From Anaerobacillus sp. CMMVII (GTDB lineage Bacteria; Bacillota; Bacilli; Bacillales; Anaerobacillaceae): DNA of 64,000 nucleotides. Location: the NCBI RefSeq assembly GCF_025377685.1, contig NZ_JACEHK010000001.1:488885-552884 (forward strand), in the 5' to 3' direction. Made by a program: the position numbers and the translations under genes. A model generated the notes under the pieces. It saw only the letters and a list, made by a program, of their open reading frames with translations, searched no databases and was not told where the DNA came from. Positions 13,320 to 47,801 of this stretch are shown one piece after another (position 1 is the stretch's first letter; each line of letters begins with the position of its first letter).

Positions 13320-13793
13320 TTGGTTACGTTGGAAGTGAGTGATTTATACGAGAAGCTGAAAGATGATCTTCACCGTTTTGCGAAATCAATCGCAAGACAT
13401 GAACAGGAGGCGTATGATCTTGTTCAAGACGCTTTGGTAAAAGCATTAAAGGAAGAAAAGCTTTTAAACTTAGCGGATTATAAGCAGCGCGCCTGGTTTT
13501 TTCGTGTTATGAAGAACCAACTCATTGATGAGCGGAGAAAGGATAGGCGGTTAACCGAGTGGGAGGACGACCTAGATTTTCCAATGCAAGGCCTTGCTAT
13601 TAACCACCTTGAAATGACGGAGCTTTTATCGAACCTACCACAGGAATTAAGTGATCTCATTTTTAAACGATATTGGCTCGGGCTGTCTAGTCAGGAAATG
13701 AGTAAACAATTTGGGGTTCCAGCCTCAACCATCCGTTATAAGCTACACATGGCTATCAAAAGATTAAGAGTAATCCTAGAGGAGGAAAAATAA
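13320..13793 (+). CDS. Sigma-70 family (ECF) RNA polymerase sigma factor
   Basis: A 157-aa protein. Region 2 spans about residues 8-75 (EQEAYDLVQDALVKAL, AWFFRVMKNQLIDERRKDRR, the last being the region 2.4 helix and linker). Region 4 spans about 103-155 (LPQELSDLIFKRYWLGLSSQEMSKQFGVPASTIRYKL cut into its helix-turn-helix). It is followed directly by a gene for a large repeat protein rather than a zinc-finger anti-sigma. The start is uncertain: TTG 13320 gives the longest frame, TTG 13329 and GTG 13335 are alternatives, none with a strong RBS. The ECF-type promoter at 13230 suggests it drives its own operon. Confidence 0.8.
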   Translation: MVTLEVSDLYEKLKDDLHRFAKSIARHEQEAYDLVQDALVKALKEEKLLNLADYKQRAWFFRVMKNQLIDERRKDRRLTEWEDDLDFPMQGLAINHLEMTELLSNLPQELSDLIFKRYWLGLSSQEMSKQFGVPASTIRYKLHMAIKRLRVILEEEK

Positions 13794-34699: not shown

Positions 34700-34891
34700 A
34701 ATTTTATTTGTTAATGAATTTCAACCTTCATTATTTTTGCAACTACAATTAGCTTGACTAAGGTAATTATGAAATTCAGTCACATCTCCAAGTATTTCCA
34801 CTGTTTGTTGCATATAATTTACTAGTTTAAAATATCCTATGGTAAAATATAGAATATTAAGAAAACTTAACGGTGAATGGGGGGAAGGTCG

Positions 34892-37800
34892 GTGCGAAAG
34901 AGATATCCATTTATAAGAACAAAATTTATTCCACCGCTGGTAAAAGATACAAATCTGTATAGACCAGTATTAAGTAAAAAATTGAGAAGAATACTTGATG
35001 TACCAATCACCTTAATCCACTCTGGCCCAGGCTATGGAAAAAGTTCATCAATTGCATCTTTCTTAGAAAATCACAAGGGACGCTACTGCTGGTATACCCT
35101 ATCGAAACAGGAGGATCATTTCATTCCGTTCCTTGTCCAAATGATATATGCAGTCCAAGTAACTTTTCCATCGTTTGGTCAGAGCTTACTTGAGTTTTTA
35201 GTAAATGAGAATATTGACAATATGGACGAAGAAATTGAGTTTCTATGTTCTGAGTTTATTAATGAACTAGTTGGCATGGACGAGTCTGTGATCATTGTTT
35301 TGGATGATATTCATTACTTAGAATCCTCTAGCAGCAGTATTAGGTGGTTAAGTTTATTAATACAATATCTACCAAAAAAAATTCATCTGGTCTTAAGTGG
35401 AAGAATACGACCGACATGGGACATTCTGACGAGGTTACTTGTCCATGGCGAGCTCCTTGAAATTACTGAGGCCGACTTGGCTTTCACGAAAGAGGAGGTT
35501 GAAGTATTATTTGGAGATTTTTATCATCTCGAGTTAAATGAATCGCAAATAAATTATGTTTATGAATTAACAGAAGGATGGATAATTGCCATTCAAATGA
35601 TCTGGCAGCAATTTAAGATTACTGGTGATCTTGAGGTCAAGGCACATTTACATATACGATCACTAGAAGAACTTTTTCGGTATTTAGCCATGGAAGTATT
35701 TTCAAAGCAACCGAGCGATATTCGACAGTTTTTACTTGCTACTTGTATCTTTGACGATTTTAATAACCCGTTCTGTAATGCTGTTTTAAAGCGGCAAGAT
35801 TCTCAAGGAATGATAGCGAACTTGCTCTCCCAAAACCTATTTATCATTCCTATTGGAACGGAACAGTATCGTTATCATCCTTTGTTTAAGGACTTTTTAA
35901 TCAAGCAATTGCGACAGGATGAAGAATGTTTTTATGAGTATCAGAACCAGGCGGCCATCTATTTTCTCGCAAAAGAGGATTATGAACGAGCGATCTACCA
36001 TTATCAGAAAATTGATGAGAATAAAAAGATTGGTTGTATTTTAGAGGAGTATGGCCAAACCCTTCTTCAGCAAGGCAAGATTGATGCTGTTTCAAAAATG
36101 CTTGAACGACTTACAACAAATATCAAAATGGAATATCGTAAGCTTTGGTTTATTGAAGGTGAAATTAATCGCTATTTTTGCCATTATGAGAGAGCGCTTA
36201 CTTGCTACCGGCAGCTTGAAGAATTGGCAGATCTTAATGAAGATGTACGAGCGGGCAGCTTGGCACATGAAGGAAAAGCAAAAATATACCTAGACACAAT
36301 TCAGCCAGCAAAAGCCGATAGTCATTTGAGTCAATCAATTTGGTTAATGGAACAAGAACAAGAAAATCCGGATCGGCAAATACAACTATATAGTCTAATG
36401 GCTGAAAATCTAGTGAATCTAGGGAAAATGAAAGAAGCGTTGCAGTGGTTAAATAAATGCAAGGCGGTTCAAGCAGATTTTACAAAGGTAGAGTTAGTGT
36501 CTCGCTATTTTTTACGTATTGGCGAGCTACACCAAGCGAAAACATTAATTGAGACGTCAACGGCAAATCAAGTAAGTGAAAATCCGCTTACCCAGTCACA
36601 TAGGGAAACAGATCTTATACTTTCAATCATCTGTTCGTTTATGGGAGAGTTAGATAAAGGAAAAAGGCTAGCTGAACGAGCGATCCTAAGAGGGACTATC
36701 CGAAAGTCTCCATTTGTAGAAGCTTGTGGCTGGATCAGAATGGGCCATGTTGTACAGCTAGATTCGAAATATAGTCATGAGTTAGCGATCCAATGCTATG
36801 AAACAGCATTAGGGTTAATGGAAAAAATCAATATGTCTCGAGGCAAGTCCGAGGCCTACATGGGCTTAACAGTACTTTATGGAAGGTTAGGAAACTATGA
36901 AATGGCTCAAAAGATGTCGCTCATGGCTATTGAAGAACCAAATCGGGTCAAAGACCAATGGTTAGCCGCTTTTGTACATGTTTCTCAAGCAATCGCCGCA
37001 ATATATTGTAAGGAATTTGAACAAGCAAAACGTTTATTACTAGAGGCTGCCACAGGCTTTGAGAAATGTGATGGAAAATATGGTCGCACAGTTACATTTT
37101 TTTGGTTAGCAAAAATTGCTCATGATGAAGAAAATTGGCTAGATTTTGCAACTAATATGGAAAAGTTTTTGCAATTGGTTCATGAATACGACTATGAATT
37201 CTTCGTAACTAGTAAAACATTGTTTGGTCCTAAAGATTTGCAATTGATCATCCCCATGCTACTGAAAGCTAAAGAACTAGAAATTATGAGCTCAAATCGT
37301 TTACTAGCGACGCTTGGATTAGAGCACTTAACCTTTCATCCAGGATACTCGATTAAAGTGAAAACGTTAGGTGATTTTCAGGTGTGGTTGGGGCACGAAA
37401 AAATCCATGAAAAAAGTTGGAAGCGTGAAAAAGCCAAAGAATTATTTCAGGTTTTTGTGACCTATAAAACAAAGATGTTCCCAAAAGGTGAATTGTTACA
37501 ATTGCTTTGGCATGAACTTGATGAGGATTCAGCACAACGAGATTTTAAAGTGGCACTAAATGCACTCAATAAAGCGATTGAACCAGGGCGTCAAGCTAGA
37601 AGTAATCCATATTTTATTCAACGAGAAGATTCTTTATATGGAATTAATAAAGAGGCTGTTTTGGAAGTTGATTCGGAGATTTTCGAACTAACGATCGAAA
37701 AAGGTCTAAAGGAAAAAGGAAATAAAGAAGCAATTGAAATTCTAACTCAAGGGCTAACTTTATATGAAGGTGACTATCTACCAACTCGTCGCTATGATGA

Positions 37801-38134
37801 CTGGTGTGTAGAAGAACGAGAACGATTACAGGTCTTATTCTTACGTGGAGCTGAGAAATTAGCGCAATTATACCTTGAAAATGAAGGGTACGATGAGGCG
37901 ATTTATTGGAGTGAAGCAATTCTTGTTAAGGATGTTTGCTGGGAAGAGGCATACCGAATTTTGATGTATGCCTACTATAAAAAGAAAAATCGAACCTACG
38001 CTCTACGAATTTATGAAAGGTGCTGTAAAGTACTTCAGGAAGAATTAGGAATTGAGCCGATTGATGCAACAAAGCAAATCTATAAGAGAATAAAAAAGAA
38101 CGCTAATGTTGAATTAAATAGTATGGCTTTGTAG
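34892..38134 (+). CDS. SARP-like STAND transcriptional activator (NTPase-TPR-wHTH-BTAD)
   Basis: The 1080-aa protein starts at GTG 34892 behind GGGGGGAAGG. N-terminal MalT-like STAND NTPase: Walker A HSGPGYGKSSS (about residues 43-53) and Walker B VIIVLDDIH (about 128-136). The middle (about 350-810) is TPR-like helical repeats. At the C-terminus an OmpR-like winged helix (about 820-905: VKTLGDFQVWLG, KAKELFQVFV) is followed by a bacterial transcriptional activation domain (about 920-1070). This is the architecture of large SARP-type activators. MalT-like proteins bind a small inducer and ATP, then oligomerise. It directly precedes an ABC importer operon whose promoters carry SARP-type repeat boxes. 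Confidence 0.85.
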   Translation: MRKRYPFIRTKFIPPLVKDTNLYRPVLSKKLRRILDVPITLIHSGPGYGKSSSIASFLENHKGRYCWYTLSKQEDHFIPFLVQMIYAVQVTFPSFGQSLLEFLVNENIDNMDEEIEFLCSEFINELVGMDESVIIVLDDIHYLESSSSSIRWLSLLIQYLPKKIHLVLSGRIRPTWDILTRLLVHGELLEITEADLAFTKEEVEVLFGDFYHLELNESQINYVYELTEGWIIAIQMIWQQFKITGDLEVKAHLHIRSLEELFRYLAMEVFSKQPSDIRQFLLATCIFDDFNNPFCNAVLKRQDSQGMIANLLSQNLFIIPIGTEQYRYHPLFKDFLIKQLRQDEECFYEYQNQAAIYFLAKEDYERAIYHYQKIDENKKIGCILEEYGQTLLQQGKIDAVSKMLERLTTNIKMEYRKLWFIEGEINRYFCHYERALTCYRQLEELADLNEDVRAGSLAHEGKAKIYLDTIQPAKADSHLSQSIWLMEQEQENPDRQIQLYSLMAENLVNLGKMKEALQWLNKCKAVQADFTKVELVSRYFLRIGELHQAKTLIETSTANQVSENPLTQSHRETDLILSIICSFMGELDKGKRLAERAILRGTIRKSPFVEACGWIRMGHVVQLDSKYSHELAIQCYETALGLMEKINMSRGKSEAYMGLTVLYGRLGNYEMAQKMSLMAIEEPNRVKDQWLAAFVHVSQAIAAIYCKEFEQAKRLLLEAATGFEKCDGKYGRTVTFFWLAKIAHDEENWLDFATNMEKFLQLVHEYDYEFFVTSKTLFGPKDLQLIIPMLLKAKELEIMSSNRLLATLGLEHLTFHPGYSIKVKTLGDFQVWLGHEKIHEKSWKREKAKELFQVFVTYKTKMFPKGELLQLLWHELDEDSAQRDFKVALNALNKAIEPGRQARSNPYFIQREDSLYGINKEAVLEVDSEIFELTIEKGLKEKGNKEAIEILTQGLTLYEGDYLPTRRYDDWCVEERERLQVLFLRGAEKLAQLYLENEGYDEAIYWSEAILVKDVCWEEAYRILMYAYYKKKNRTYALRIYERCCKVLQEELGIEPIDATKQIYKRIKKNANVELNSMAL

Positions 38135-38204
38135 AAGGCTGTGGTATGTTTTGATGCTTGAGATTACTCGAACTTATCACCAGAAAAATCCCGAGAAACT
38201 ATTT

Positions 38205-38237
38205 TGTAACTAAGATGTAACTTCGTATTTGTATAGT
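38205..38237 (+). promoter_or_regulatory. Predicted SARP box 1 and promoter
   Basis: TGTAACT (38205-38211), four bases, TGTAACT (38216-38222), then nine bases to TATAGT (38232-38237). Heptamer direct repeats with 11-bp period ending about 8 bp before the -10 are the known SARP binding geometry. There is no good -35 of its own; the box occupies that position. Confidence 0.6.
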
Positions 38238-38327
38238 AAGGATGAAATGAAAAGTAAAAAATAGGAGGTTAGCGGAGTTCAAGTGAGTAGGTTATACTGC
38301 ACTCTTAAAAGACTGAATATTTAAAAA

Positions 38328-38359
38328 TGTAACTTATTTGTAACCTTCATCCTTAATAC
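38328..38359 (+). promoter_or_regulatory. Predicted SARP box 2 and promoter
   Basis: TGTAACT (38328-38334), TATT, TGTAACC (38339-38345), then eight bases to TAATAC (38354-38359). It has the same heptamers and 11-bp period as box 1, exactly 123 bp downstream of it. It is 31 bp before the binding-protein gene, so the mRNA leader would be short. Confidence 0.6.
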
Positions 38360-38389
38360 TGAAGATATCACAAAAAAGGGGGATTTAAG

Positions 38390-39649
38390 ATGAGATTGAA
38401 GAAAACGTGGCTTGGGTTTCTGTTTGCACTACTTGCTTTCGTAATGCTTGCAGCGTGTAGCTCTAGTGATACAGGTGGCGAACAAGAAAAACCAAATGAA
38501 GAAACACCAAAAGCGCCGACAGAAGTGAAAGAGGAGCAGGAAGTAGTCAAAATTGGGTTATTAACATCATTAACAGGTGCGCTAGAAGCGTATGGTGCGC
38601 AAACAGTAAAAGGTTTTGAACTTGGGCTGGAATATGCAACTGGTGGCACAATGGAAGTTGCCGGGAAGAAAATTGAATTCATTATTGAGGATACAGAAAC
38701 CCAAGCAGATGTAGCAGTTCAAAAGGCTACGAGATTACTAGAGGATCATAAAGTCGACTTTATTGTTGGTTCTTCTTCGTCTGGTGATACATTAGCCGTT
38801 TTACCATTAATGGAAGAGTATAAAAAAATAATGGTTGTTGAACCTGCTGTCGCTGACAGTATCACAGGGGCAAACTGGAACAAGTACATTTTCCGTACAG
38901 GTAGAAGCTCGTCACAGGATGCTGTTGCCGGTGCTGCTGCGATTGCCAAAGAAGGTGTAAAGATCGCGACGTTGGCACAAGATTTCGCATTTGGTATAGA
39001 TGGAGTTGCAGCGTTTAAAAAGGCTGCAGAAGATCTGGGGGCAACTATCATTCATGAAGAGTTTGCGGATCCAGCAGGTGTTGACTTTTCTTCGAATATT
39101 CAACGAATTATTAATGCACAGCCAGATTACTTATTTGTTATTTGGGCGGGCGCTAATAATCCTTGGGGACAACTAGAGGATATGAGAATTCAAGATCGCG
39201 GTATTAAAATCTCGACAGGAGCTCCAGATATTGCAGCCCTACGTACCATGCAAGATGTTGTTGGTATGGAAGGCTTCACTGTTTACCACCATAGTCTACC
39301 AAATAATGAAGTGAACGATTGGTTAGTTAATGAACATCAAAAGCGCCATAATGGCGAGATGCCAGATTTATTTACACCTGGTGGCTTTGCGGCAGCAATG
39401 GCAATCGTCGCAGCACTAGAAAAAACAAATGGTGATGTTGATACGGAAACTTTAATTACAGCTATGGAAGGAATGACGTTTGATACTCCAAAAGGACCAA
39501 TGACATTCCGTCCGGAGGATCACCAAGCTTTACAAACAATGTATGCGATTACACTCGAAATGACGGATGAGTTTGATTATCCGGTACCAGTCTTGAAGCG
39601 TGAACTTTCACCAGAAGAAACAGCACCTGTAATTCAAAATAGTCGCTAA
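38390..39649 (+). CDS. ABC importer substrate-binding lipoprotein (LivJ-like)
   Basis: The 419-aa protein has a signal peptide and lipobox VMLAAC (Cys near residue 23), an acidic linker, then a type I periplasmic-binding fold of the branched-chain-amino-acid/amide family (VVKIGLLTSLTGALEAYGAQTVKGFELGLEYA, in part GLLTSLTGALEAYG). It delivers a ligand to the permease pair encoded downstream. In this family the ligand can be amino acids, urea, amides or aromatic acids, so the name does not fix the substrate. AAAAGGGGG precedes the ATG. Two predicted SARP boxes lie just upstream. Confidence 0.88.
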   Translation: MRLKKTWLGFLFALLAFVMLAACSSSDTGGEQEKPNEETPKAPTEVKEEQEVVKIGLLTSLTGALEAYGAQTVKGFELGLEYATGGTMEVAGKKIEFIIEDTETQADVAVQKATRLLEDHKVDFIVGSSSSGDTLAVLPLMEEYKKIMVVEPAVADSITGANWNKYIFRTGRSSSQDAVAGAAAIAKEGVKIATLAQDFAFGIDGVAAFKKAAEDLGATIIHEEFADPAGVDFSSNIQRIINAQPDYLFVIWAGANNPWGQLEDMRIQDRGIKISTGAPDIAALRTMQDVVGMEGFTVYHHSLPNNEVNDWLVNEHQKRHNGEMPDLFTPGGFAAAMAIVAALEKTNGDVDTETLITAMEGMTFDTPKGPMTFRPEDHQALQTMYAITLEMTDEFDYPVPVLKRELSPEETAPVIQNSR

Positions 39650-39662
39650 TTAAAATAAAGGT

Positions 39663-39698
39663 GGAGCACGATGATTTCAATGCGTGCTCCGCTTTTTT
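39663..39698 (+). terminator. Intrinsic terminator inside the importer operon
   Basis: GGAGCACG (39663-39670) pairs with CGTGCTCC (39683-39690), followed by GCTTTTTT. Lying between the binding-protein gene and the ATPase gene, it probably makes the binding protein more abundant than the membrane complex. Confidence 0.75.
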
Positions 39699-39749
39699 AA
39701 AAGGGAGTTTAAGTTTTAACAAGAAAGCTCGAACAGAGGGGTGAGATTG

Positions 39750-40514
39750 GTGGAAACAATACTAGAAACAAAAGACTTAACAATTGCCTTTGGCGGCCAT
39801 ATCGCCGTAAGTGATGTAAACGTAGAAATTGAACGGAACCAGCTTAAATCAATTATTGGTCCGAATGGAGCGGGTAAGACGACGTTTTTTAATATGATCA
39901 GTGGCCAGCTAAAACCGACAAAAGGGCAAGTCTTTTTTAAAGGTCAAGACATAACAAAATTGTCGCCAACAGAACGAACTAGATTAGGAATCGGCAGGTC
40001 GTTTCAGATAACCAATGTGTTCCCTCATTTAACCTGTCATGAGAATGTGAGACTCGCAGTGCAATCGCAAATGGGAATTTTTTATAATATGATCTCTCAT
40101 TTTAAAAGTTTAAAAGAAGTGAACGAAAAAGCTTCTGAGTTTTTGAAAACAGTCATGCTTGAAGACAAGGAGAATGAGTTGGCTGTAAATCTAGCTCATG
40201 GAGAAAAAAGAAAGTTAGAGATTGCGATGCTGCTTGCCTTAGAAACCGAAGTGTTACTTTTAGATGAACCAACAGCAGGAATGTCTTTAGAAGAGGTTCC
40301 AATGATCCTCGATGTCATTCGTGCAATTCGTGATGAACGTAAACGGACAATTGTGCTAATCGAGCACAAAATGGATATGATCCTCGATTTATCAGACAGC
40401 ATTATGGTTTTATTCCACGGTAAGCTACTTGCTGATGGGGAACCAGAGGAGATTATGCAGAACGAACAGGTTCAAAGAGCCTATTTAGGAGGTTTGCACA
40501 ATGACGCTTCTTAA
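39750..40514 (+). CDS. ABC importer ATPase, LivG-like
   Basis: Walker A GPNGAGKTT (about residues 34-42), the LivG-type insertion (LTCHENVRLAVQ, then MISHFKSLKEVNEKA), a signature-like NLAHGEKRKLEIAM and Walker B EVLLLDEPTAGMS, then IVLIEHKMD. About 254 aa, standard for LivG. The signature LSGGQ is replaced by LAHGE, a usual LivG variant. The start is taken at GTG 39750 (AGAGGGGTG upstream); GTG 39741 and TTG 39747 are alternatives. It overlaps the next gene by 14 bp. Confidence 0.88.
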   Translation: METILETKDLTIAFGGHIAVSDVNVEIERNQLKSIIGPNGAGKTTFFNMISGQLKPTKGQVFFKGQDITKLSPTERTRLGIGRSFQITNVFPHLTCHENVRLAVQSQMGIFYNMISHFKSLKEVNEKASEFLKTVMLEDKENELAVNLAHGEKRKLEIAMLLALETEVLLLDEPTAGMSLEEVPMILDVIRAIRDERKRTIVLIEHKMDMILDLSDSIMVLFHGKLLADGEPEEIMQNEQVQRAYLGGLHNDAS

Positions 40515-41205
40515 AGTGGAAAACATTCATACCTATATTCAGCAGTATCACATTTTACAAGGCGTTTCATTTGAAGTAAAGCAAGGGGAAGTAACGGTAT
40601 TGTTAGGTCGAAATGGAGCGGGGAAAACGACGACACTTCGATCAATCATGGGGTTAAATCAAGTGAAGTCAGGGAGTATCACTTTTAAAGGCGAAGCGAT
40701 TCATACGTGGCCGACGCACAAAATTGCCAATGCGGGAATTGGCTATGTTCCTGAGGATCAGGGGATATTTGGATCATTAACTGTCGAAGAAAATATGAAG
40801 GTTGCGATGAAGAAAAAGGATGAGGCGACTCTAGAACGCATGGACTGGATTCTCGACTTGTTTCCGGATTTAAAGCAATTTTGGAAAAAGAATGGTGGTC
40901 ACTTAAGTGGGGGGCAAAAGCAAATGTTATCGATCGCAAGAGCTTATATCAATGACAATGCGATGCTACTCATTGATGAACCTAGTAAGGGATTAGCACC
41001 TATTATTGTCGAGAAGGTAATGGATTCGATCAATCAAATGAAGGAGAAAACGACGGTCGTACTTGTTGAACAAAATTTCATGATGGCAAGTGCTATTGGG
41101 GATCGCTTTTACATTATCGATGACGGTCATTCTGTTTATGACGGAGCGATGGAAGAACTAAAGCATGACGAACAATTAAAAAGAAAATATTTAGGAATTG
41201 CTTAA
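40501..41205 (+). CDS. ABC importer ATPase, LivF-like
   Basis: The 234-aa protein has Walker A LLGRNGAGKTTTLRSIMG, signature GGHLSGGQKQMLSIARA and Walker B MLLIDEPSKGLAP, followed by VVLVEQNFMMA, all LivF features. It would form a heterodimer with the upstream ATPase. Start ATG overlaps livG-like gene by 14 bp, implying translational coupling. A 160-bp space without an obvious terminator follows before the permease genes. Confidence 0.9.
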   Translation: MTLLKVENIHTYIQQYHILQGVSFEVKQGEVTVLLGRNGAGKTTTLRSIMGLNQVKSGSITFKGEAIHTWPTHKIANAGIGYVPEDQGIFGSLTVEENMKVAMKKKDEATLERMDWILDLFPDLKQFWKKNGGHLSGGQKQMLSIARAYINDNAMLLIDEPSKGLAPIIVEKVMDSINQMKEKTTVVLVEQNFMMASAIGDRFYIIDDGHSVYDGAMEELKHDEQLKRKYLGIA

Positions 41206-41376
41206 TAGGAGAGTGAATTTCCTAAATACCTTAACCGAGCTATATCAATCTAGATACAGTTGCAATTGGTTTTTACGAAACTAAGACTTAATAGCGAAAA
41301 TAATGTAATGATGAAATTCACTAAGGAGACAAAACTTTTGGCAGAAGCCATGTACTACAGAAAGTAGGTGAAGCAA

Positions 41377-42246
41377 TTGGAAATGCTGATAAACATTACG
41401 ATCAATGGTTTGGCTACTGGGATGCTAATCTTTCTACTTGCTGCAGGGTTAACACTTATTTTTGGGTTGATGGACGTTTTAAACTTCGCCCATGGAGCCC
41501 TGTTTTTATGGGGGGCATATGTAGGAATTTGGGGTTATACAACCACTGGAAGCTTTTTACTTGGAATTTTGATGGCCATTATCGCGTGCGGAATTTTAGG
41601 ATATTTATTAGAGCGGTTTATCGTCAAACCTGTGTATGGAAATCACATTCAACAAATATTGATTACCTTGGGTGCGATGCTTGTGCTAAGTGAGCTCGTA
41701 AAAGTTGTCTGGGGACCTAATATTATTCAGGCTAGAGCTCCTGAATGGCTTCGTGGTAGCTGGGAAGTTGGCGATGTATTTCTCATAAAGTACCGAATTT
41801 TTATTATCTTTGTGGGATTAGTTGTTTTTGGTGGATTGTTATTTTTATTAAATCGAACGAAACTGGGGCTCGTCGTGAGAGCGGGTGTTATGGATAAAGA
41901 AATGGTGCAGGCGTTAGGGATAAATATTCGTAGAGTCTTCTTATTCGTTTTTATCCTAGGAGCATCAATGGCTGGTTTAGGAGGAATGCTGTTTGGTCCA
42001 TACTCAGGGGTCATTTATGCGGAGATAGGATTAGAGTATGGTATTTTAGCATTTATTGTTGTTGTCATAGGCGGTATGGGTAGCGTGTTGGGCTCAATGA
42101 TTGCAGCACTATTAGTCGGTTTACTAGGTTCTTATGCAGCTTATTTTTTACCTGAAATTGCTTTAGCGGTTAATTTTCTGCTGATGATCGGAATCTTAGT
42201 ATTTAGGCCTTCAGGGATTATGGGTATGAAGGAGGCACTAAAATGA
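41377..42246 (+). CDS. ABC importer permease, LivH-like
   Basis: A membrane protein of about 289 aa with eight hydrophobic segments; NGLATGMLIFLLAAGLTLIFGLMDVLNFAHGALFLWGAY opens it as in LivH (key part FGLMDVLNFAHG), and the coupling-helix region VRAGVMDKEMVQALGINI is present. TTG 41377 is chosen because AGTAGGTGA lies seven bases before; GTG 41368 and ATG 41383 are alternatives. It overlaps the next permease gene by 4 bp. Confidence 0.85.
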   Translation: MEMLINITINGLATGMLIFLLAAGLTLIFGLMDVLNFAHGALFLWGAYVGIWGYTTTGSFLLGILMAIIACGILGYLLERFIVKPVYGNHIQQILITLGAMLVLSELVKVVWGPNIIQARAPEWLRGSWEVGDVFLIKYRIFIIFVGLVVFGGLLFLLNRTKLGLVVRAGVMDKEMVQALGINIRRVFLFVFILGASMAGLGGMLFGPYSGVIYAEIGLEYGILAFIVVVIGGMGSVLGSMIAALLVGLLGSYAAYFLPEIALAVNFLLMIGILVFRPSGIMGMKEALK

Positions 42247-43268
42247 GTCGACTGAAACAGATCTCGAAATTTAAGTTTAGCTTATCGGTCGTCGCGATTG
42301 GCATGCTGATGCTACCTTTTGTGAATGACTCTCGGACAGCAATGATCATGTTAACGAAGATCTTTATTTTTGCGGTCTTTGCGATGAGCTATGACTTGTT
42401 ATTGGGTTATACAGGAATTGTATCCTTTGGTCATGCGATGTTCTTTGGGATTGGTGCGTATACAGTAGCGATTTGCTTAAAGGCTTTTGGTCCTACCGTG
42501 CCGGTCGTTTTATTAGCGACAGTTATTACGATTATCTTTACCGCGATTGTTAGTTTCCTAGTTGGACTACTAACCCTCCGATTAAAAGCTCATTTCTTTG
42601 CGATGTTGACGTTGGCTGTTGCTGCTTTATTTTTGGTAATTGCTGAAAAGTGGCGCTCGGTAACAATGGGGAATGATGGGTTTACGTTTGCCATTCCTGA
42701 GATTTTCCGTGATCGAGTCTCGTTTTATTTCATTGCCTTGATCTTTATGATCCTTGTGTACTTGTTCTTAGAACGGTTTACGCAGTCACCGATGGGGCGA
42801 GTTTTGCAGGCAATTCGAGAAAATGAGCCTCGGGTCGAGTCACTAGGCTACCGCGTCATGCATTATAAAATTACTGCTAACGTTATCGCCGGAGTTGTTG
42901 CAGGTTTAGCAGGAATTCTGTATGCAATGAGTTTACGTTTTGTTAATACAGCGGTTTTCGCAACTGAGTTAACATTAGATGCACTGTTAATCACGATCAT
43001 CGGTGGGGTCGGAACTTTGTTTGGGGCAATTGTTGGTGCGGCGCTTGTCGAGTATGCCAGACATGCCTTAATGGACTTAGCGAGTGTTCACTGGATCTTC
43101 GGGCGCTGGGTCATCCTTCTTGGAACCGTTTTTATCCTGGTTGTCATGTTCTTCCCAAAAGGTATTGTTGGATCAACGAAATATTGGTGGGCGAAACGAC
43201 AAATGGCGAAAGCAAATAAAATACAAAGTGCATCGTCCAGTAAAAATCTCGATCGAGATGTGAGCTAA
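42243..43268 (+). CDS. ABC importer permease, LivM-like
   Basis: The 341-aa membrane protein has the LivM signature MSYDLLLGYTGIVSFGHAMFFGIGAY (key part GYTGIVSFGHAMF) and the coupling segment RVLQAIRENEPRVESLGYRV (20 residues). It completes a five-part importer (binding protein, two ATPases, two permeases). ATG overlaps the LivH stop (ATGA). A 59-codon ORF follows 14 bp later. Confidence 0.88.
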   Translation: MSRLKQISKFKFSLSVVAIGMLMLPFVNDSRTAMIMLTKIFIFAVFAMSYDLLLGYTGIVSFGHAMFFGIGAYTVAICLKAFGPTVPVVLLATVITIIFTAIVSFLVGLLTLRLKAHFFAMLTLAVAALFLVIAEKWRSVTMGNDGFTFAIPEIFRDRVSFYFIALIFMILVYLFLERFTQSPMGRVLQAIRENEPRVESLGYRVMHYKITANVIAGVVAGLAGILYAMSLRFVNTAVFATELTLDALLITIIGGVGTLFGAIVGAALVEYARHALMDLASVHWIFGRWVILLGTVFILVVMFFPKGIVGSTKYWWAKRQMAKANKIQSASSSKNLDRDVS

Positions 43269-43282
43269 GGAGAGAGACAGCT

Positions 43283-43462
43283 ATGGAGTCACAATCTCAA
43301 GTGAAGTCATTCGTGATCAGAGTACAGACCGTAGAGGATGATAATCAGTCACGTGATCAGAGTTTACGAATAAAGGTGAAACATGTTCAATCAGACGAAG
43401 AGGCTACTTATGCAACGTTGGAGGAGGTCTTCGATTATATCAAGGACGTAATTGGGGAGTGA
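43283..43462 (+). CDS. Small acidic hypothetical protein in importer/CoA operon (59 aa)
   Basis: ATG at 43283 follows AAGGAGAGAGACAG. The product (SFVIRVQTVEDDNQSRDQSL, then IKVKHVQSDEEATYATLEEVFDYIKDVIGE) has two likely beta strands and a C-terminal amphipathic helix, with no membrane segment. The tight spacing (14 bp after LivM, 6 bp before the KASIII-like gene) makes it part of the operon. I know no family; it is a candidate accessory subunit for the enzymes that follow. Confidence 0.65.
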   Translation: MESQSQVKSFVIRVQTVEDDNQSRDQSLRIKVKHVQSDEEATYATLEEVFDYIKDVIGE

Positions 43463-43468
43463 AACTGA

Positions 43469-44503
43469 GTGAAACAAGAGACGGAAGCGATTGGAATTGT
43501 TAGTACAGGAGTGTACCTACCGGATCGGCGCATGAGTGGTCGTGATATTGCAACTTTATCTGGAATACCGCTAGAAGTAGTTGAGTTGAAAATGGGGATT
43601 AAGGAGAAAATAGTTCCCGGTCCCAATGATCATACGTGCCAGATGGGAGTACTTGCAGCTAAAGAAGCGTTAAAAAAAGCTGACCTTGATCCTCGTGAGC
43701 TTGATTTAATTATTTATATTGGAGAAGAACACAAAGAATATCCACTTTGGACAGCTGGAATTAAACTCCAACAAGAAATTGGTGCAGTTAATGCTTGGGC
43801 GTTTGATGTGGCGATGCGTTGCGGTACAACGGTGATGGCGTTGAAAGTAGCCAAAGATATGATGAAGGCGGACCCGGAGATTCGGACTGTATTGCTGGCT
43901 GGTGGGTATCGAAATGTCGATTTTATTGATTATGAGAATCCGAGAACAAGGTTCATGTATAACCTTTCTGCTGGAGGAGGGGCAATCATCCTTCAGAGAG
44001 GATATCAGAAAAACGAACTATTAGAAACGTCACTAATGACAGATGGGTCTTTCTCAGAAGATGTCGTTGTTGTCGCTGGAGGAACGAAACATCCGATCAC
44101 TGCAGATGCCATTGAAAAACGCCTTAATTATTTGGAGGTGCTTGATCCAGCTGGAATGAAAGCACGACTTGAGGAAAAATCAATGCGAAACTTCTTGCAG
44201 GTGATTAGACAATCCTTAAAGAAAAGTGGTCTTTCAGAAGTAGACATTGATTATTTAGCTATTCTGCATATGAAACGTTCGGCACACGAGTATGTTTTAC
44301 GAGAATTACAATTACAGGAGGAACAGTCAGTCTATTTAGAAGATTACGGTCATATCGGCCAAATAGATCAAATTTTATCGGTAGAACTAGCCCTTGAACA
44401 AGGCAAAATAGCTACAGGTGATGTTGTCGTGCTCGTTAGTGCTGGAATTGGCTACGCATGGGGAGCAACAACGATTCGCTGGGGTAAGAAAATAGCTTAC
44501 TAG
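43469..44503 (+). CDS. KASIII/HMG-CoA-synthase-like thiolase-fold enzyme
   Basis: The 344-aa protein starts at GTG behind GGGGAGTGAAACTGA. It has the FabH-type fold: GIVSTGVYLPDRRMS, the nucleophile Cys118 in DVAMRCGTTVMA, His267 in AILHMKRSAHEYV and the nucleotide-side loop DYGHIGQIDQ. In FabH the last loop has the catalytic Asn (GNTSAAS); here the corresponding residue appears to be His295. So it is a divergent member, probably acting on a CoA ester by Claisen condensation or its reverse. Followed by a hydrolase, SDR and ligase gene in one operon, it is not likely to serve housekeeping fatty-acid synthesis. Confidence 0.75.
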   Translation: MKQETEAIGIVSTGVYLPDRRMSGRDIATLSGIPLEVVELKMGIKEKIVPGPNDHTCQMGVLAAKEALKKADLDPRELDLIIYIGEEHKEYPLWTAGIKLQQEIGAVNAWAFDVAMRCGTTVMALKVAKDMMKADPEIRTVLLAGGYRNVDFIDYENPRTRFMYNLSAGGGAIILQRGYQKNELLETSLMTDGSFSEDVVVVAGGTKHPITADAIEKRLNYLEVLDPAGMKARLEEKSMRNFLQVIRQSLKKSGLSEVDIDYLAILHMKRSAHEYVLRELQLQEEQSVYLEDYGHIGQIDQILSVELALEQGKIATGDVVVLVSAGIGYAWGATTIRWGKKIAY

Positions 44504-44542
44504 ATGCTATCAGAATTGAAAAAACGATAGGAGGAAAGTTAT

Positions 44543-45442
44543 ATGGCGGAAGTGACCTTAAAGTCCGTAACAATCGAGAATGGAGAAACAATTGCCTATC
44601 GCGAACGTACCGGTGGTGAGGAAGTATTGCTTTTGGTTCATGGCAATATGACTTCTTCAAAGCATTGGGACTTATTAATAGATACATTAGATGAAAAATA
44701 TAAAATTTATGCAATAGATTTACGAGGGTTTGGCGGGTCGAGTTATCATCAAGCGATCAATTCGATCAAAGATTTTAGCGATGATTTAAAGCAACTTGTC
44801 GATGTCATAGGTTTAGAGAGATTTTCCCTCATGGGTTGGTCGACGGGTGGAGCAGTTTCGATGCAGTTTACGATTGATCACCATGAACAAGTGAATCGTC
44901 TAATTCTCCTCGCATCAGCTTCGACTAGAGGATATCCTTTCGTACAAGTAAATCCAGCTGGTGAAGTCGTTCGATGTAAGTCGAAGGAAGAGATCGAACA
45001 AGACACAACAAAGTCACTTCCAGTTCTTAAAGCCTATGAAACTAGAAATAAAGAGTTCCTTAGAGCTCTTTGGAATGCGGTCATCTATACGACTAAGCAA
45101 CCGCCTGAAGACTTATACGACCAATATACGGAAGATATGTTGACGCAGCGTAATCTCACTGATGTCTATCATGCTTTAAATACATTTAATATTAGTGATG
45201 TTCATAATGGCTTATCAGCAGGAACTGGAAGAGTGAAGGAGATTGGGGTACCTACACTTGTTTTATGGGGTGAAAATGATTTAGTAGTCACCGAACAAAT
45301 GACAAAGGAGATAAGCGAAGATTTAGGAAAGGTAGCCAAAGTTGTTTATTTACAAGGTTGTGGACATTCCCCGTTGGTAGATAATTTAAAGCTATTAAAG
45401 CATGAGGTTGAATGCTTTCTTGAAGGTTATAGATTGATATAG
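44543..45442 (+). CDS. Alpha/beta-hydrolase
   Basis: The 299-aa protein has the oxyanion motif LLVHGNMTSSKHW, a nucleophile elbow GWSTGG (Ser near residue 98), an acid in LWGENDLVV and the His in GCGHSPLVDN. A cap domain fills residues ~135-205. No signal peptide, so cytoplasmic. Close relatives include carbon-carbon hydrolases of aromatic meta-cleavage and esterases; which applies here cannot be told. GATAGGAGGAAAG precedes the ATG. Part of the same transcription unit as the KASIII-like gene. Confidence 0.82.
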   Translation: MAEVTLKSVTIENGETIAYRERTGGEEVLLLVHGNMTSSKHWDLLIDTLDEKYKIYAIDLRGFGGSSYHQAINSIKDFSDDLKQLVDVIGLERFSLMGWSTGGAVSMQFTIDHHEQVNRLILLASASTRGYPFVQVNPAGEVVRCKSKEEIEQDTTKSLPVLKAYETRNKEFLRALWNAVIYTTKQPPEDLYDQYTEDMLTQRNLTDVYHALNTFNISDVHNGLSAGTGRVKEIGVPTLVLWGENDLVVTEQMTKEISEDLGKVAKVVYLQGCGHSPLVDNLKLLKHEVECFLEGYRLI

Positions 45443-45462
45443 AGATTGAGAGGAGAAATTTT

Positions 45463-46203
45463 ATGCGTTTAAGAGATAAAGTTGCGATTGTGACAGGTGG
45501 AGGAAATGGTATTGGAAGAGAGACAGTATTAACTTTTGTAAGAGAAGGTGCAAAGGTAGTCATTGCTGATTTTAATGAAGAAGCAGGTTCGCAAGTATTG
45601 CAAGAGGTAAACGATCTTGGAGGAACTGCGTTTTTTCAGAAGGTGAATGTTGCAGATCAAGAGAGTGTGAAACAATTAGTGGAAACAACGATCGAAACAT
45701 TTGGGGTAGTGTCGATTTTGGTAAATAACGCTGGAATTACGGCTGATGCGATGACCCACAAAATGACCCCTGATGCTTGGCAAAAAGTAATTGATGTGAA
45801 TTTATCTGGTGTCTTTTACTGTACACAGGCAGTGATCGGAAAAATGCTTGAACAGGGAAAAGGGAAGATTATTAATACCTCGAGTGTTTCTGGTATTTAT
45901 GGGAATGTTGGGCAAGCCAATTATGCAGCTACGAAAGCGGGCGTGGTCGGCATGACGAAAACCTGGGCAAAGGAGTATGGAGGCAAGGGAATTAACGTCA
46001 ATGCCGTCGCTCCAGGATTTATTGAAACCGCTATGGTTGCGAAGGTGCCAGAGAAGGTCATTGAGAAAATGAAAGCAATCATTCCTTTGAAAAGACTAGG
46101 AAGTCCAACTGATATTGCAAATGCTTATCTTTATCTAGCATCTGATGAATCGAACTACGTTAATGGTACCGTTCTCCACGTTGATGGTGGGATCATGATG
46201 TGA
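45463..46203 (+). CDS. Short-chain dehydrogenase/reductase (FabG-like)
   Basis: The 246-aa SDR has the NAD(P) motif TGGGNGIG, NNAG, Ser in NTSSVSG and the catalytic YAATK. C-terminal GGIMM is as in FabG-type 3-oxoacyl reductases. With the KASIII-like enzyme next to it, a 3-oxoacyl-CoA or 3-hydroxyacyl-CoA substrate is a reasonable inference. GAGAGGAGAAA precedes the ATG. Confidence 0.85.
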   Translation: MRLRDKVAIVTGGGNGIGRETVLTFVREGAKVVIADFNEEAGSQVLQEVNDLGGTAFFQKVNVADQESVKQLVETTIETFGVVSILVNNAGITADAMTHKMTPDAWQKVIDVNLSGVFYCTQAVIGKMLEQGKGKIINTSSVSGIYGNVGQANYAATKAGVVGMTKTWAKEYGGKGINVNAVAPGFIETAMVAKVPEKVIEKMKAIIPLKRLGSPTDIANAYLYLASDESNYVNGTVLHVDGGIMM

Positions 46204-46213
46204 TCTCCTAATC

Positions 46214-46246
46214 TGTAACTTGAATGCAACTCTTTTTTTATATATT
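46214..46246 (+). promoter_or_regulatory. Predicted SARP box 3 and promoter
   Basis: TGTAACT (46214-46220), TGAA, TGCAACT (46225-46231), then nine bases to TATATT (46241-46246). The heptamers, 11-bp period and distance to the -10 match boxes 1 and 2. It lies in the 115-bp gap before the ligase gene and suggests a second, internal activator-dependent promoter. Confidence 0.55.
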
Positions 46247-46318
46247 GGTATAAGAAAAACATTGTGCGCGAACTTGTTAGATTGCGCAAATGATAACAAA
46301 AGTAAAGGGGGAGGTAAG

Positions 46319-47801
46319 ATGAGCTGGGATATTGATTGGTTGCAAAAACGAGCTCGGATTACTCCGGACCGAGTTGCAGTTGTTGATGGGGAAACGAGAG
46401 AGCGGTGGACGTACCAAAGTTTAAATGAACGTGCAGAACGTTTTGCTTCATATTTAGTTGAGAATGGAATTACCAAAGGAGATCGAGTAGCGCTACTCTC
46501 TCCAAATCACGTTTGCTATTTTGATTTATTGTTTGCTTGTACGAAACTAGGAGCGATTTTCGTTCCGTTAAACTGGAGACTTTCAAACAACGAAGTCGAA
46601 TATATCCTAAATGATTGTCAGCCCAAATTAATCGCATTTGCGGAAAAACTACAGTCATTACTTCCAAAAGAATACAAGGGATCATTGTTTAATATAAGTC
46701 AACAGTATGAGTTGATCGTCAAACATCCTATTACCCGAAGCAATTACGCTCAAGTGAATGAGTGTGATCCACTAGCGATTATTTATACGGGTGGAACAAC
46801 AGGGAAGCCCAAAGGAGCAGTTCTTACTCACCAGTCGATTTTCTTTAATGCAATTAATACGATTATAAGCTGGAATTTAACATCTGAAGATACGACGGTC
46901 ACCTATTTACCAATGTTTCATACCGGGGGACTAAACGCCTTATCACTCCCGTTATTACATATTGGGGGAAAAGTGGTGATTGGTGATAGATTTGAAGCAA
47001 AGCGGATTATCAAAGTGATTAATGAGGAAAAGTGTACGATTCTCCTTTAGTACCAACGATGTACCATGTCTTAACAGAAACAAAACTATTTCAAAAAACG
47101 TCATTTCCAACGATGCATACATTTTTATCTGGTGGAGCACCGTGTTCTTATCGGATTTATGAAGCTTTTGCCAAAAAAGGTTTAGCGTTTAAAGAAGGTT
47201 ATGGGTTAACGGAAGCAGGGCCAAATAACTTTTATATTAATCCAAGTGAGGTCTTGCAGAAGAGAGGATCGGTCGGTAAACCAATGCTTTATAATGACGT
47301 CAAAATCGTAGACGATTGTGGCAGAGAGGTTCGTAGTAGTGAGGTTGGTGAAATTATCATCAGCGGCCATCATCTTTTTGCTCATTATTGGAACAATCCT
47401 TCTGTAACTGCCGAAACGAAAAAGGATGGTTGGCTTTATACTGGTGACCTAGGGAAATTTGATGAAGAAGGCTATTTTATATTGTTGGTCGAAAAAAAGA
47501 CATGATCATCACGGGTGGTGAAAATGTTTTTCCTTTAGAAGTAGAGCATGTCATTGCCGAACATGATGAGGTAGCTGAAGTCGCCGTTGTTGGCATCGGT
47601 GATGAAAAATGGGGTGAGGTTGTGACAGCTTTTATCGTCCCAAAAGATAAAGCAGTTATAACAGAAACAGATATTGAGATCCACTGTAAAGCCTACCTTG
47701 GCGGCTATAAAGTGCCAAAGATCATTCGTTTTGTTACCCAATTACCGAAAACCGCTGTTGGCAAAATTGATAAGAAGCAATTAGTAGAGATGAAGGCTTG
47801 A
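46319..47801 (+). pseudogene. AMP-dependent acyl-CoA ligase, two frameshifts
   Basis: Three consecutive frames together give one acyl-CoA synthetase. ATG 46319 follows AAAGGGGGAGG. Motifs: A3 IIYTGGTTGKPKGAVLTHQS (20 residues), A5 EGYGLTEAGP, A7 YTGDLG and a C-terminal lysine region PKTAVGKIDKKQL. Shifts occur near 47042-47052 (CCTTTAG) and near 47484-47500 before GRKKDMIITGGE. Restoring one base at each gives 495 codons, the normal length. It would activate a carboxylic acid to its CoA thioester through an acyl-AMP. Likely intact in the organism. Confidence 0.85.

Follow-up and report, generated by a model that had tools for sequence, protein, structure and literature searches.

Three boxes, each built of two heptamers of the form TGTAACY or close to it, 11 bp apart, lie beside the gene of a large regulator in a 64,000-nucleotide stretch of DNA from Anaerobacillus sp. 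CMMVII (contig NZ_JACEHK010000001.1, positions 488,885 to 552,884; this whole stretch is called the window). The regulator joins a MalT-like STAND ATPase and an array of tetratricopeptide repeats (TPRs) to a C-terminal winged helix-turn-helix (wHTH)-BTAD module, and box and regulator occur together across genomes of the same order. From these sequence comparisons, the protein is probably a ligand-gated activator whose paired TGTAACY boxes replace the -35 element and whose targets serve the scavenging of poly-3-hydroxybutyrate (PHB) and 3-hydroxybutyrate.

Boxes and promoter anatomy

The regulator gene, the boxes and the hexamers that follow them are arranged as follows:

34892..38134, + strand: regulator gene, encoding a MalT-like STAND ATPase, TPR array and C-terminal wHTH-BTAD module (Pfam, PDB sequence search, fold search)
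38205..38222, + strand: box 1, TGTAACT-AAGA-TGTAACT; extra tandem site, present in the four regulator-bearing genomes of the Anaerobacillus-genus sample
38232..38237, + strand: -10-like TATAGT, 9 nt 3' of box 1; offset conserved in relatives
38328..38345, + strand: box 2, TGTAACT-TATT-TGTAACC; the importer box common to relatives
38355..38360, + strand: -10-like AATACT, 9 nt 3' of box 2; alternative TAATAC one base earlier
46214..46231, + strand: box 3, TGTAACT-TGAA-TGCAACT; 5' of the ligase gene, kept in three relatives of the genus
46241..46246, + strand: -10-like TATATT, 9 nt 3' of box 3

Boxes 1 and 2 start 185 and 62 nt upstream of the ATG of the importer's substrate-binding protein (38390), and box 3 starts 105 nt upstream of the ATG of the acyl-CoA ligase (46319). 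With up to two mismatches, TGTAACTN4TGTAACT has four matches in the window against a shuffle mean of 0.50 (sd 0.76), and none of 100 shuffles reaches four; the fourth match (38194) overlaps box 1 in register. In the 4.87-Mb genome TGTAAC-N5-TGYAAC matches three times, exactly at boxes 1 to 3, all within 8.0 kb, 5' of two genes and beside the only BTAD protein detected in the genome. A preliminary description of this DNA had reported the three doublets with their 11-bp period, their placement 5' of the importer and ligase genes, the lack of another doublet in the window, a -10-like hexamer 8-9 bp downstream and the lack of a proper -35. Its sequences and coordinates are exact, and the hexamer stands at 9 nt, in a register kept by relatives.

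The promoter profile is based on 87 non-redundant sites that were chosen by the box, so that heptamer conservation is given by construction; this does not apply to the -10, the absent -35 or the spacer. The four-base spacer carries 0.05-0.45 bits per column. The -10 keeps a single distance, nine nt, to the second heptamer (T27 92 %, A28 93 %, T32 98 %), where the three bases occur jointly in 72 of the 87 sites, as against 10 or fewer at each of twelve other offsets. No TTGACA-like -35 is apparent, the best match at spacers of 16-18 reaching at most 3/6 in 86/87 sites. An A at +39 of the site numbering, seven nt past the -10, is conserved (89 %) and is a plausible transcript start; numbered from it, the heptamers begin at -39 and -28.

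This anatomy resembles that of sites bound by SARPs (Streptomyces antibiotic regulatory proteins), Streptomyces activators of antibiotic genes (PMC10936776, PMC10972967). The repeats of SARP sites are reported to be spaced by 11 or 22 bp and to stand 8 bp away from the -10, and the AfsR box to span -40 to -19 (PMC10936776). With 9 nt here, the two geometries agree to within one base, as the likeness to SARP boxes first drawn from the window alone had implied. A degenerate third unit, AGAAACT, lies in register 5' of box 1 (38194-38222), and one relative in the genus, G002, also carries a degenerate unit there; no third heptamer appears in the profile built from the relatives' boxes. Three-heptamer sites are reported for some SARPs (PMC10972967).

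Co-occurrence of box and regulator

The comparative sample comprised 397 genomes of the same order, drawn evenly, in which the regulator (E <= 1e-80) and the doublet TGTAACY-N4-TGTAACY were searched separately. The regulator is present in 97 genomes and in 42 of 135 genera. The doublet occurs in 94 of the 97 genomes with the regulator versus 36 of the 300 without it (Fisher p 1.5e-56, a value inflated by relatedness). Counted as sites, there are 187 in regulator genomes and 39 in the others, against 15 and 62 for the reversed control; the doublet is therefore at background without the regulator and far above it where the regulator is present. Because relatedness inflates the p-value, the comparison was also made within genera: in the seven genera that hold both kinds of genome, the doublet is found in 39/39 with the regulator and in 3/40 without. 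Only five of the 36 regulator-less genomes with a doublet have TANNNT at the right offset, one of them being G338, where the site precedes a PHA depolymerase gene. The three regulator genomes without a strict doublet (G093, G148, G269) have boxes with one or two changes at their loci. In one genus (g39), three genomes (G083, G163, G213) carry regulators 31-33 % identical to that of the window and one doublet each; the doublet is found in 0/9 regulator-less genomes of that genus.

The gene cluster and the position of the box

Downstream of the regulator, the window contains the following genes:

38390..39649, + strand: substrate-binding protein of a branched-chain-amino-acid-type ABC importer
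39741-40514 and 40501-41205, + strand: two importer ATPase genes
41368-42246 and 42243-43268, + strand: two importer permease genes
43469..44503, + strand: enzyme like beta-ketoacyl-ACP synthase III (KAS III; NF005308)
44543..45442, + strand: homologue of intracellular short-chain polyhydroxyalkanoate (PHA) depolymerases, PHAZ (NCBIfam NF050089, i_nPHAscl, 439 bits versus a cut-off of 300)
45463..46203, + strand: FabG/acetoacetyl-CoA-reductase-like short-chain dehydrogenase/reductase (SDR)
46319-47050, 47032-47505 and 47502-47801, + strand: acyl-CoA ligase gene, in three frames

The ligase gene is split over three overlapping frames in this assembly, with pieces that are consecutive on the NCBIfam models; in genus relatives G002 and G006 the ligases are single open reading frames (ORFs) of 489 and 495 aa. 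The split may reflect an assembly error or a broken gene in this strain. The PHA synthase match in the same genome is under the curated cut-off.

The position of the box was followed in the best 80 of 286 relatives, belonging to Bacillaceae and Paenibacillaceae genera by title; this named set overlaps the order sample, and the two are not independent. A box was scored when at least 13/14 bases matched within 330 nt upstream of a gene, for all cluster genes except the second ATPase and the second permease. Of 67 loci in which the binding-protein gene could be scored, 66 have a box 5' of it, also where the gene order is rearranged, and the single miss (L034) has a box at 13578 and a wrongly projected gene start. 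The check proposed in the preliminary description, conservation of the doublets in orthologous clusters, thus bears it out, as does the pairing across the 397 genomes. The best ligase match is preceded by a box in 39 of 55 loci. By contrast, none is found 5' of the KAS (0/66), first ATPase (0/69), first permease (0/68), PHAZ (0/65) or regulator (0/80) gene, and the SDR gene has one in a single locus of 59 (Peribacillus acanthi, where the importer is outside the retrieved stretch). The regulator's strand carries 115 boxes and the opposite one two, of which one precedes a PHA depolymerase gene in A. pseudofirmus OF4. Ligases without a box number 16/55; among the 12 listed, six are ligases of 34-38 % identity between regulator and importer, three (L040, L046, L057) have a box about 1.3 kb upstream, L058 has 11/14 bases, and L056 and L098 have none.

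The boxes tend to move with their genes. The Paenibacillus/Cohnella loci with an importer are ordered box-ligase, regulator and then box-importer, three Paenibacillus/Cohnella loci having a further stretch between the ligase and its box about 1.3 kb upstream. P. tyrfis and P. elgii retain the ligase box, and the stretches retrieved from them contain no importer. Evansella has the importer and its box ahead of the other genes. In G206 and G131, importer and regulator point away from each other and the box lies between them. In G006, of the window's own genus, the SDR gene lies downstream rather than upstream of the ligase, and the box stays at the ligase. In seven Paenibacillus/Cohnella loci (L040, L046, L047, L048, L053, L057, L061) the boxed ligase gene is directly 5' of the regulator gene, so that the regulator would activate its own transcription.

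The regulator protein

The GTG start at 34892 is preceded by a ribosome-site-like GGGGGGAAGG, and an ATG at 34877 offers a longer alternative start. The STAND ATPase occupies aa about 14-412 and the wHTH-BTAD module aa about 826-1073 of 1085. Pfam (PF03704, 78.5 bits), PDB sequence search and fold search concur on a MalT-like front, TPRs and wHTH-BTAD, the architecture that had been read from the window. The N-terminal part matches MalT (PDB 8bob) over aa 14-412 by sequence, and MalT is also its top fold match. The NCBIfam MalT model gives 209.5 bits, far under its 537-bit cut-off. The protein is not a member of the MalT family in the strict sense. The regulator also matches AfsR by phmmer. 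For the C-terminal model (predicted local distance difference test, pLDDT, 92.7), the top six PDB matches in Foldseek are AfsR and EmbR chains (E 5e-11 to 1e-7), followed by unrelated TPR proteins from E 4e-4.

Regulators were aligned in sets of 20 (A1), 32 (A2) and 30 (A3) sequences, with L041 and L052 dropped from the structure alignments on account of stops. The presumed recognition helix is nearly invariant (K891, V892 and N895 are identical in 32/32 orthologues), as is expected for an invariant box. AfsR W74 corresponds to W878, which is kept in 27/32 orthologues. In one genus relative (G004; L005, L006), the regulator is present in two pieces, open frames of 488 aa and 641 aa about 1.8 kb apart; this genome retains both importer boxes and the ligase-type box.

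The secreted PHB depolymerase and other distal boxes

Eleven stretches with a doublet away from the cluster were fetched (L153-L163). Five of them (L155, L156, L158-L160) have the doublet with a -10 outside an ORF, and all five precede the gene of a secreted Esterase_PHB-domain protein, related to PDB 8daj (PHB depolymerase family). The doublet of L154 has a -10 and lies inside an ORF, while those of L153 (5' of a citrate-synthase-family gene), L157 and L161-L163 (one genus, end of the upstream ORF) have no -10. On NCBIfam NF050058 (e_dPHAscl type 1), one of the five proteins and that of A. pseudofirmus OF4 score 331.6 and 335.9 versus a cut-off of 150 bits.

The secreted depolymerase is found in 38 of the 397 genomes at E <= 1e-60. 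Its box was scored in 30 of the 38, the remainder being the regulator-bearing G058 and G203 and six others. Box and -10 stand at the gene in 14 of 16 loci with the regulator versus 1 of 14 without it. The two misses among regulator genomes are G055 and G383; at G055 (L206) a 13/14 box appears once the search is widened to 350 nt, a widening that was not applied to the regulator-less loci. Of the 80 named genomes 50 were searched; seven of these have the depolymerase and six of the seven the box, B. taeanensis (the same genome as G058) being without it. Four of the seven (L033, L035, L037, L050) belong to the order sample as well. In A. pseudofirmus OF4 the gene lies next to the regulator and is divergent from it, and in two Alkalihalobacterium it stands after the SDR gene. 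A B. infantis genome with the cluster (L092) gave no match to the depolymerase query at 1e-60, and a paper on PHB in B. infantis (PMC10468675), considered as a lead, was therefore not used as support.

Two further sites deserve mention. In G265 (L164:666-1985), a box with a -10 lies 5' of the gene of a secreted lipase-like protein of 418 aa and no clear family, which could be another type of polymer hydrolase; a second box in this stretch lies 5' of a ligase gene, and there the fixed offset holds no -10. In the window's own genome, box plus -10 with one mismatch allowed gives five sites versus two for the control: boxes 1 to 3, one inside an ORF and one on another contig, 65 nt 5' of a 3-hydroxybutyrate dehydrogenase gene, bdhA (L116:1501-1533; G000:C15:83531). 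The latter box is degenerate, matching at 12/14 positions and at 3/3 of the -10, which reads TATGAT and keeps the fixed offset, and bdhA is a possible fourth member of the regulon in this species. The term self-contained, used for the regulon in the preliminary description, thus needs correction: in relatives boxes also precede the often unlinked depolymerase gene, and the bdhA candidate points beyond the cluster in the window's own genome.

Proposed mechanism and alternatives

How might such a regulator work? The MalT-like STAND ATPase and the TPR array would sense a small molecule, most likely a breakdown product of PHB (3-hydroxybutyrate, its oligomer or its CoA ester). In the active regulator, the C-terminal wHTH-BTAD modules would sit side by side on the pair of TGTAACY heptamers, which begin at about -39 and -28 and so are 11 bp apart, and would make up for the absent -35 through contacts to sigma region 4 and RNA polymerase like those made by AfsR. 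The polymerase would then start from the -10 nine nt downstream. The genes predicted to be controlled are those of the importer-to-SDR unit and the acyl-CoA ligase, to which some relatives add the secreted PHB depolymerase gene; with these, PHB would be cut outside the cell, its products imported, the oligomers hydrolysed, loaded on CoA and oxidised. The boxes are tied to PHB breakdown by the gene content of the cluster and of the distal sites. It also seems reasonably likely that SARP-type promoter logic extends across Bacillaceae and Paenibacillaceae, carried by a protein with a MalT front and an AfsR-like C-terminus and by a regulon that links a secreted PHB depolymerase to the import of oligomers and to breakdown inside the cell.

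Several observations weigh against this proposal. The AfsR residues that read bases, T88 and R92, align with V892 and A896 and are not conserved; such a difference is expected for a different heptamer, and the DNA contacts of AfsR are therefore not transferable one by one. The window's own genome has three matches to the reversed control pattern as well, and a loose doublet is no commoner there than its control. The number of matches is thus not unusual whereas their position is: the genome-wide search suggested in the preliminary description supports the boxes by their place beside the BTAD gene and not by rarity, which was rejected as proof. In G338 (L148, L173), a perfect box with a -10 lies 5' of a secreted PHB depolymerase gene and no regulator is detected at 1e-5; it may have lost the regulator recently, or another regulator may read the box. 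At bdhA, a box of at least 14/17 is found in 2/30 loci of regulator genomes (30 of 50 matches in 40 genomes were scored) and in 0/3 genus relatives. As a general regulon member bdhA was rejected on this count and kept as species-specific or due to chance. Finally, the secreted depolymerase is matched (E <= 1e-60) in 18 of the 97 regulator genomes, leaving 79 and the window's own genome without a match. PHB therefore need not be the main substrate; the system may usually serve to take up 3-hydroxybutyrate or related acids that others release.

The same 79 genomes favour an alternative in which the pairing of box and regulator is real and the acid handled by the pathway is a different one (for example a 3-hydroxy or 3-keto acid that is branched, medium-chain or aromatic), PHB depolymerases having joined the regulon only in some lineages because their products enter the same pathway. 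The importer type has many ligands, and a KAS III-like enzyme is not known as part of the usual 3-hydroxybutyrate route. Against this, the cluster itself holds an intracellular short-chain PHA depolymerase homologue over its cut-off, and secreted PHB depolymerases with a box in front turn up in several genera. We regard this alternative as fairly unlikely.

It is also conceivable that the doublets are bound by an unlinked OmpR/PhoP-type regulator and that the BTAD protein acts elsewhere, given that PhoP-type regulators of Bacilli use direct repeats with a period of about 11 bp. This is very improbable, since the doublet tracks the BTAD regulator by genome and also within genera, which a widespread PhoP would not do, and it is phased to the -10 as SARP sites are. 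The existence of PhoP boxes does qualify the earlier remark that this geometry is unfamiliar in Bacilli: it fails for direct repeats of about 11 bp as such and holds for this box, its phase and its partner regulator, which are what is new in Bacilli. That the TGTAAC words serve an alternative sigma factor as its -35, an element that can look like this, is harder still to credit: there are two copies at a fixed 11-bp spacing, 10 nt (downstream copy) and 21 nt (upstream copy) from a housekeeping TATNAT-like -10. Chance doublets, for which the three matches against three of the reversed pattern would speak, are contradicted by conservation across families and by the window shuffles, and their probability is negligible.

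Should the activator proposed here be confirmed, SARP-style replacement of the -35 would be more general than thought, reaching another phylum, a swapped architecture, another heptamer and a catabolic regulon. It would constitute a transcriptional switch for environmental PHB scavenging in Bacilli; the box would predict scavenging genes in unstudied Bacilli by sequence search, and the regulator would be a candidate biosensor for bioplastic breakdown products. Among the matches listed from the open-licence literature, no description of such a regulator or box in Bacilli was found, which is weak evidence of absence, and none of a transcriptional regulator of i_nPHAscl or e_dPHAscl depolymerases in Bacilli. 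In a review of PHA regulation, the main text mentions Bacillus a single time, in connection with PHA production (PMC7204398).

Comparison with known systems

Two types of PHA depolymerase are connected to the box, the cluster enzyme being over the NF050089 cut-off and two distal targets in relatives over that of NF050058. The regulator itself combines features of proteins that are otherwise separate. With MalT (PDB 8bob) and other LuxR-type STAND regulators it shares the order of STAND ATPase and TPRs, as well as the position of an activator beside the import genes it would control; differently from these, it ends in a wHTH-BTAD module and not in a LuxR-type HTH. EmbR of Mycobacterium tuberculosis (PDB 2ff4, 2fez) has the same wHTH-BTAD fold, followed by an FHA domain, as described in PMC10936776; it has no STAND or TPR front.

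AfsR and the other SARPs have in common with the window's regulator the wHTH-BTAD fold, 11-bp direct repeats close 5' of the -10 and a poor or absent -35; AfsR also has a nucleotide-binding domain and TPRs. The differences concern the place of the module (N-terminal in SARPs, C-terminal here), the heptamer (TGTAACY) and the residues at the AfsR T88 and R92 positions, the hosts (Streptomyces versus Bacillaceae and Paenibacillaceae) and the targets, which are antibiotic biosynthesis genes for SARPs and, by gene content, importer, acyl-CoA and PHA enzymes here. Since neither the N-terminal module nor the antibiotic targets are found, the regulator is not classed as a SARP; in the geometry of its box and the fold of its presumed DNA-binding module, it reads as SARP-like in action.

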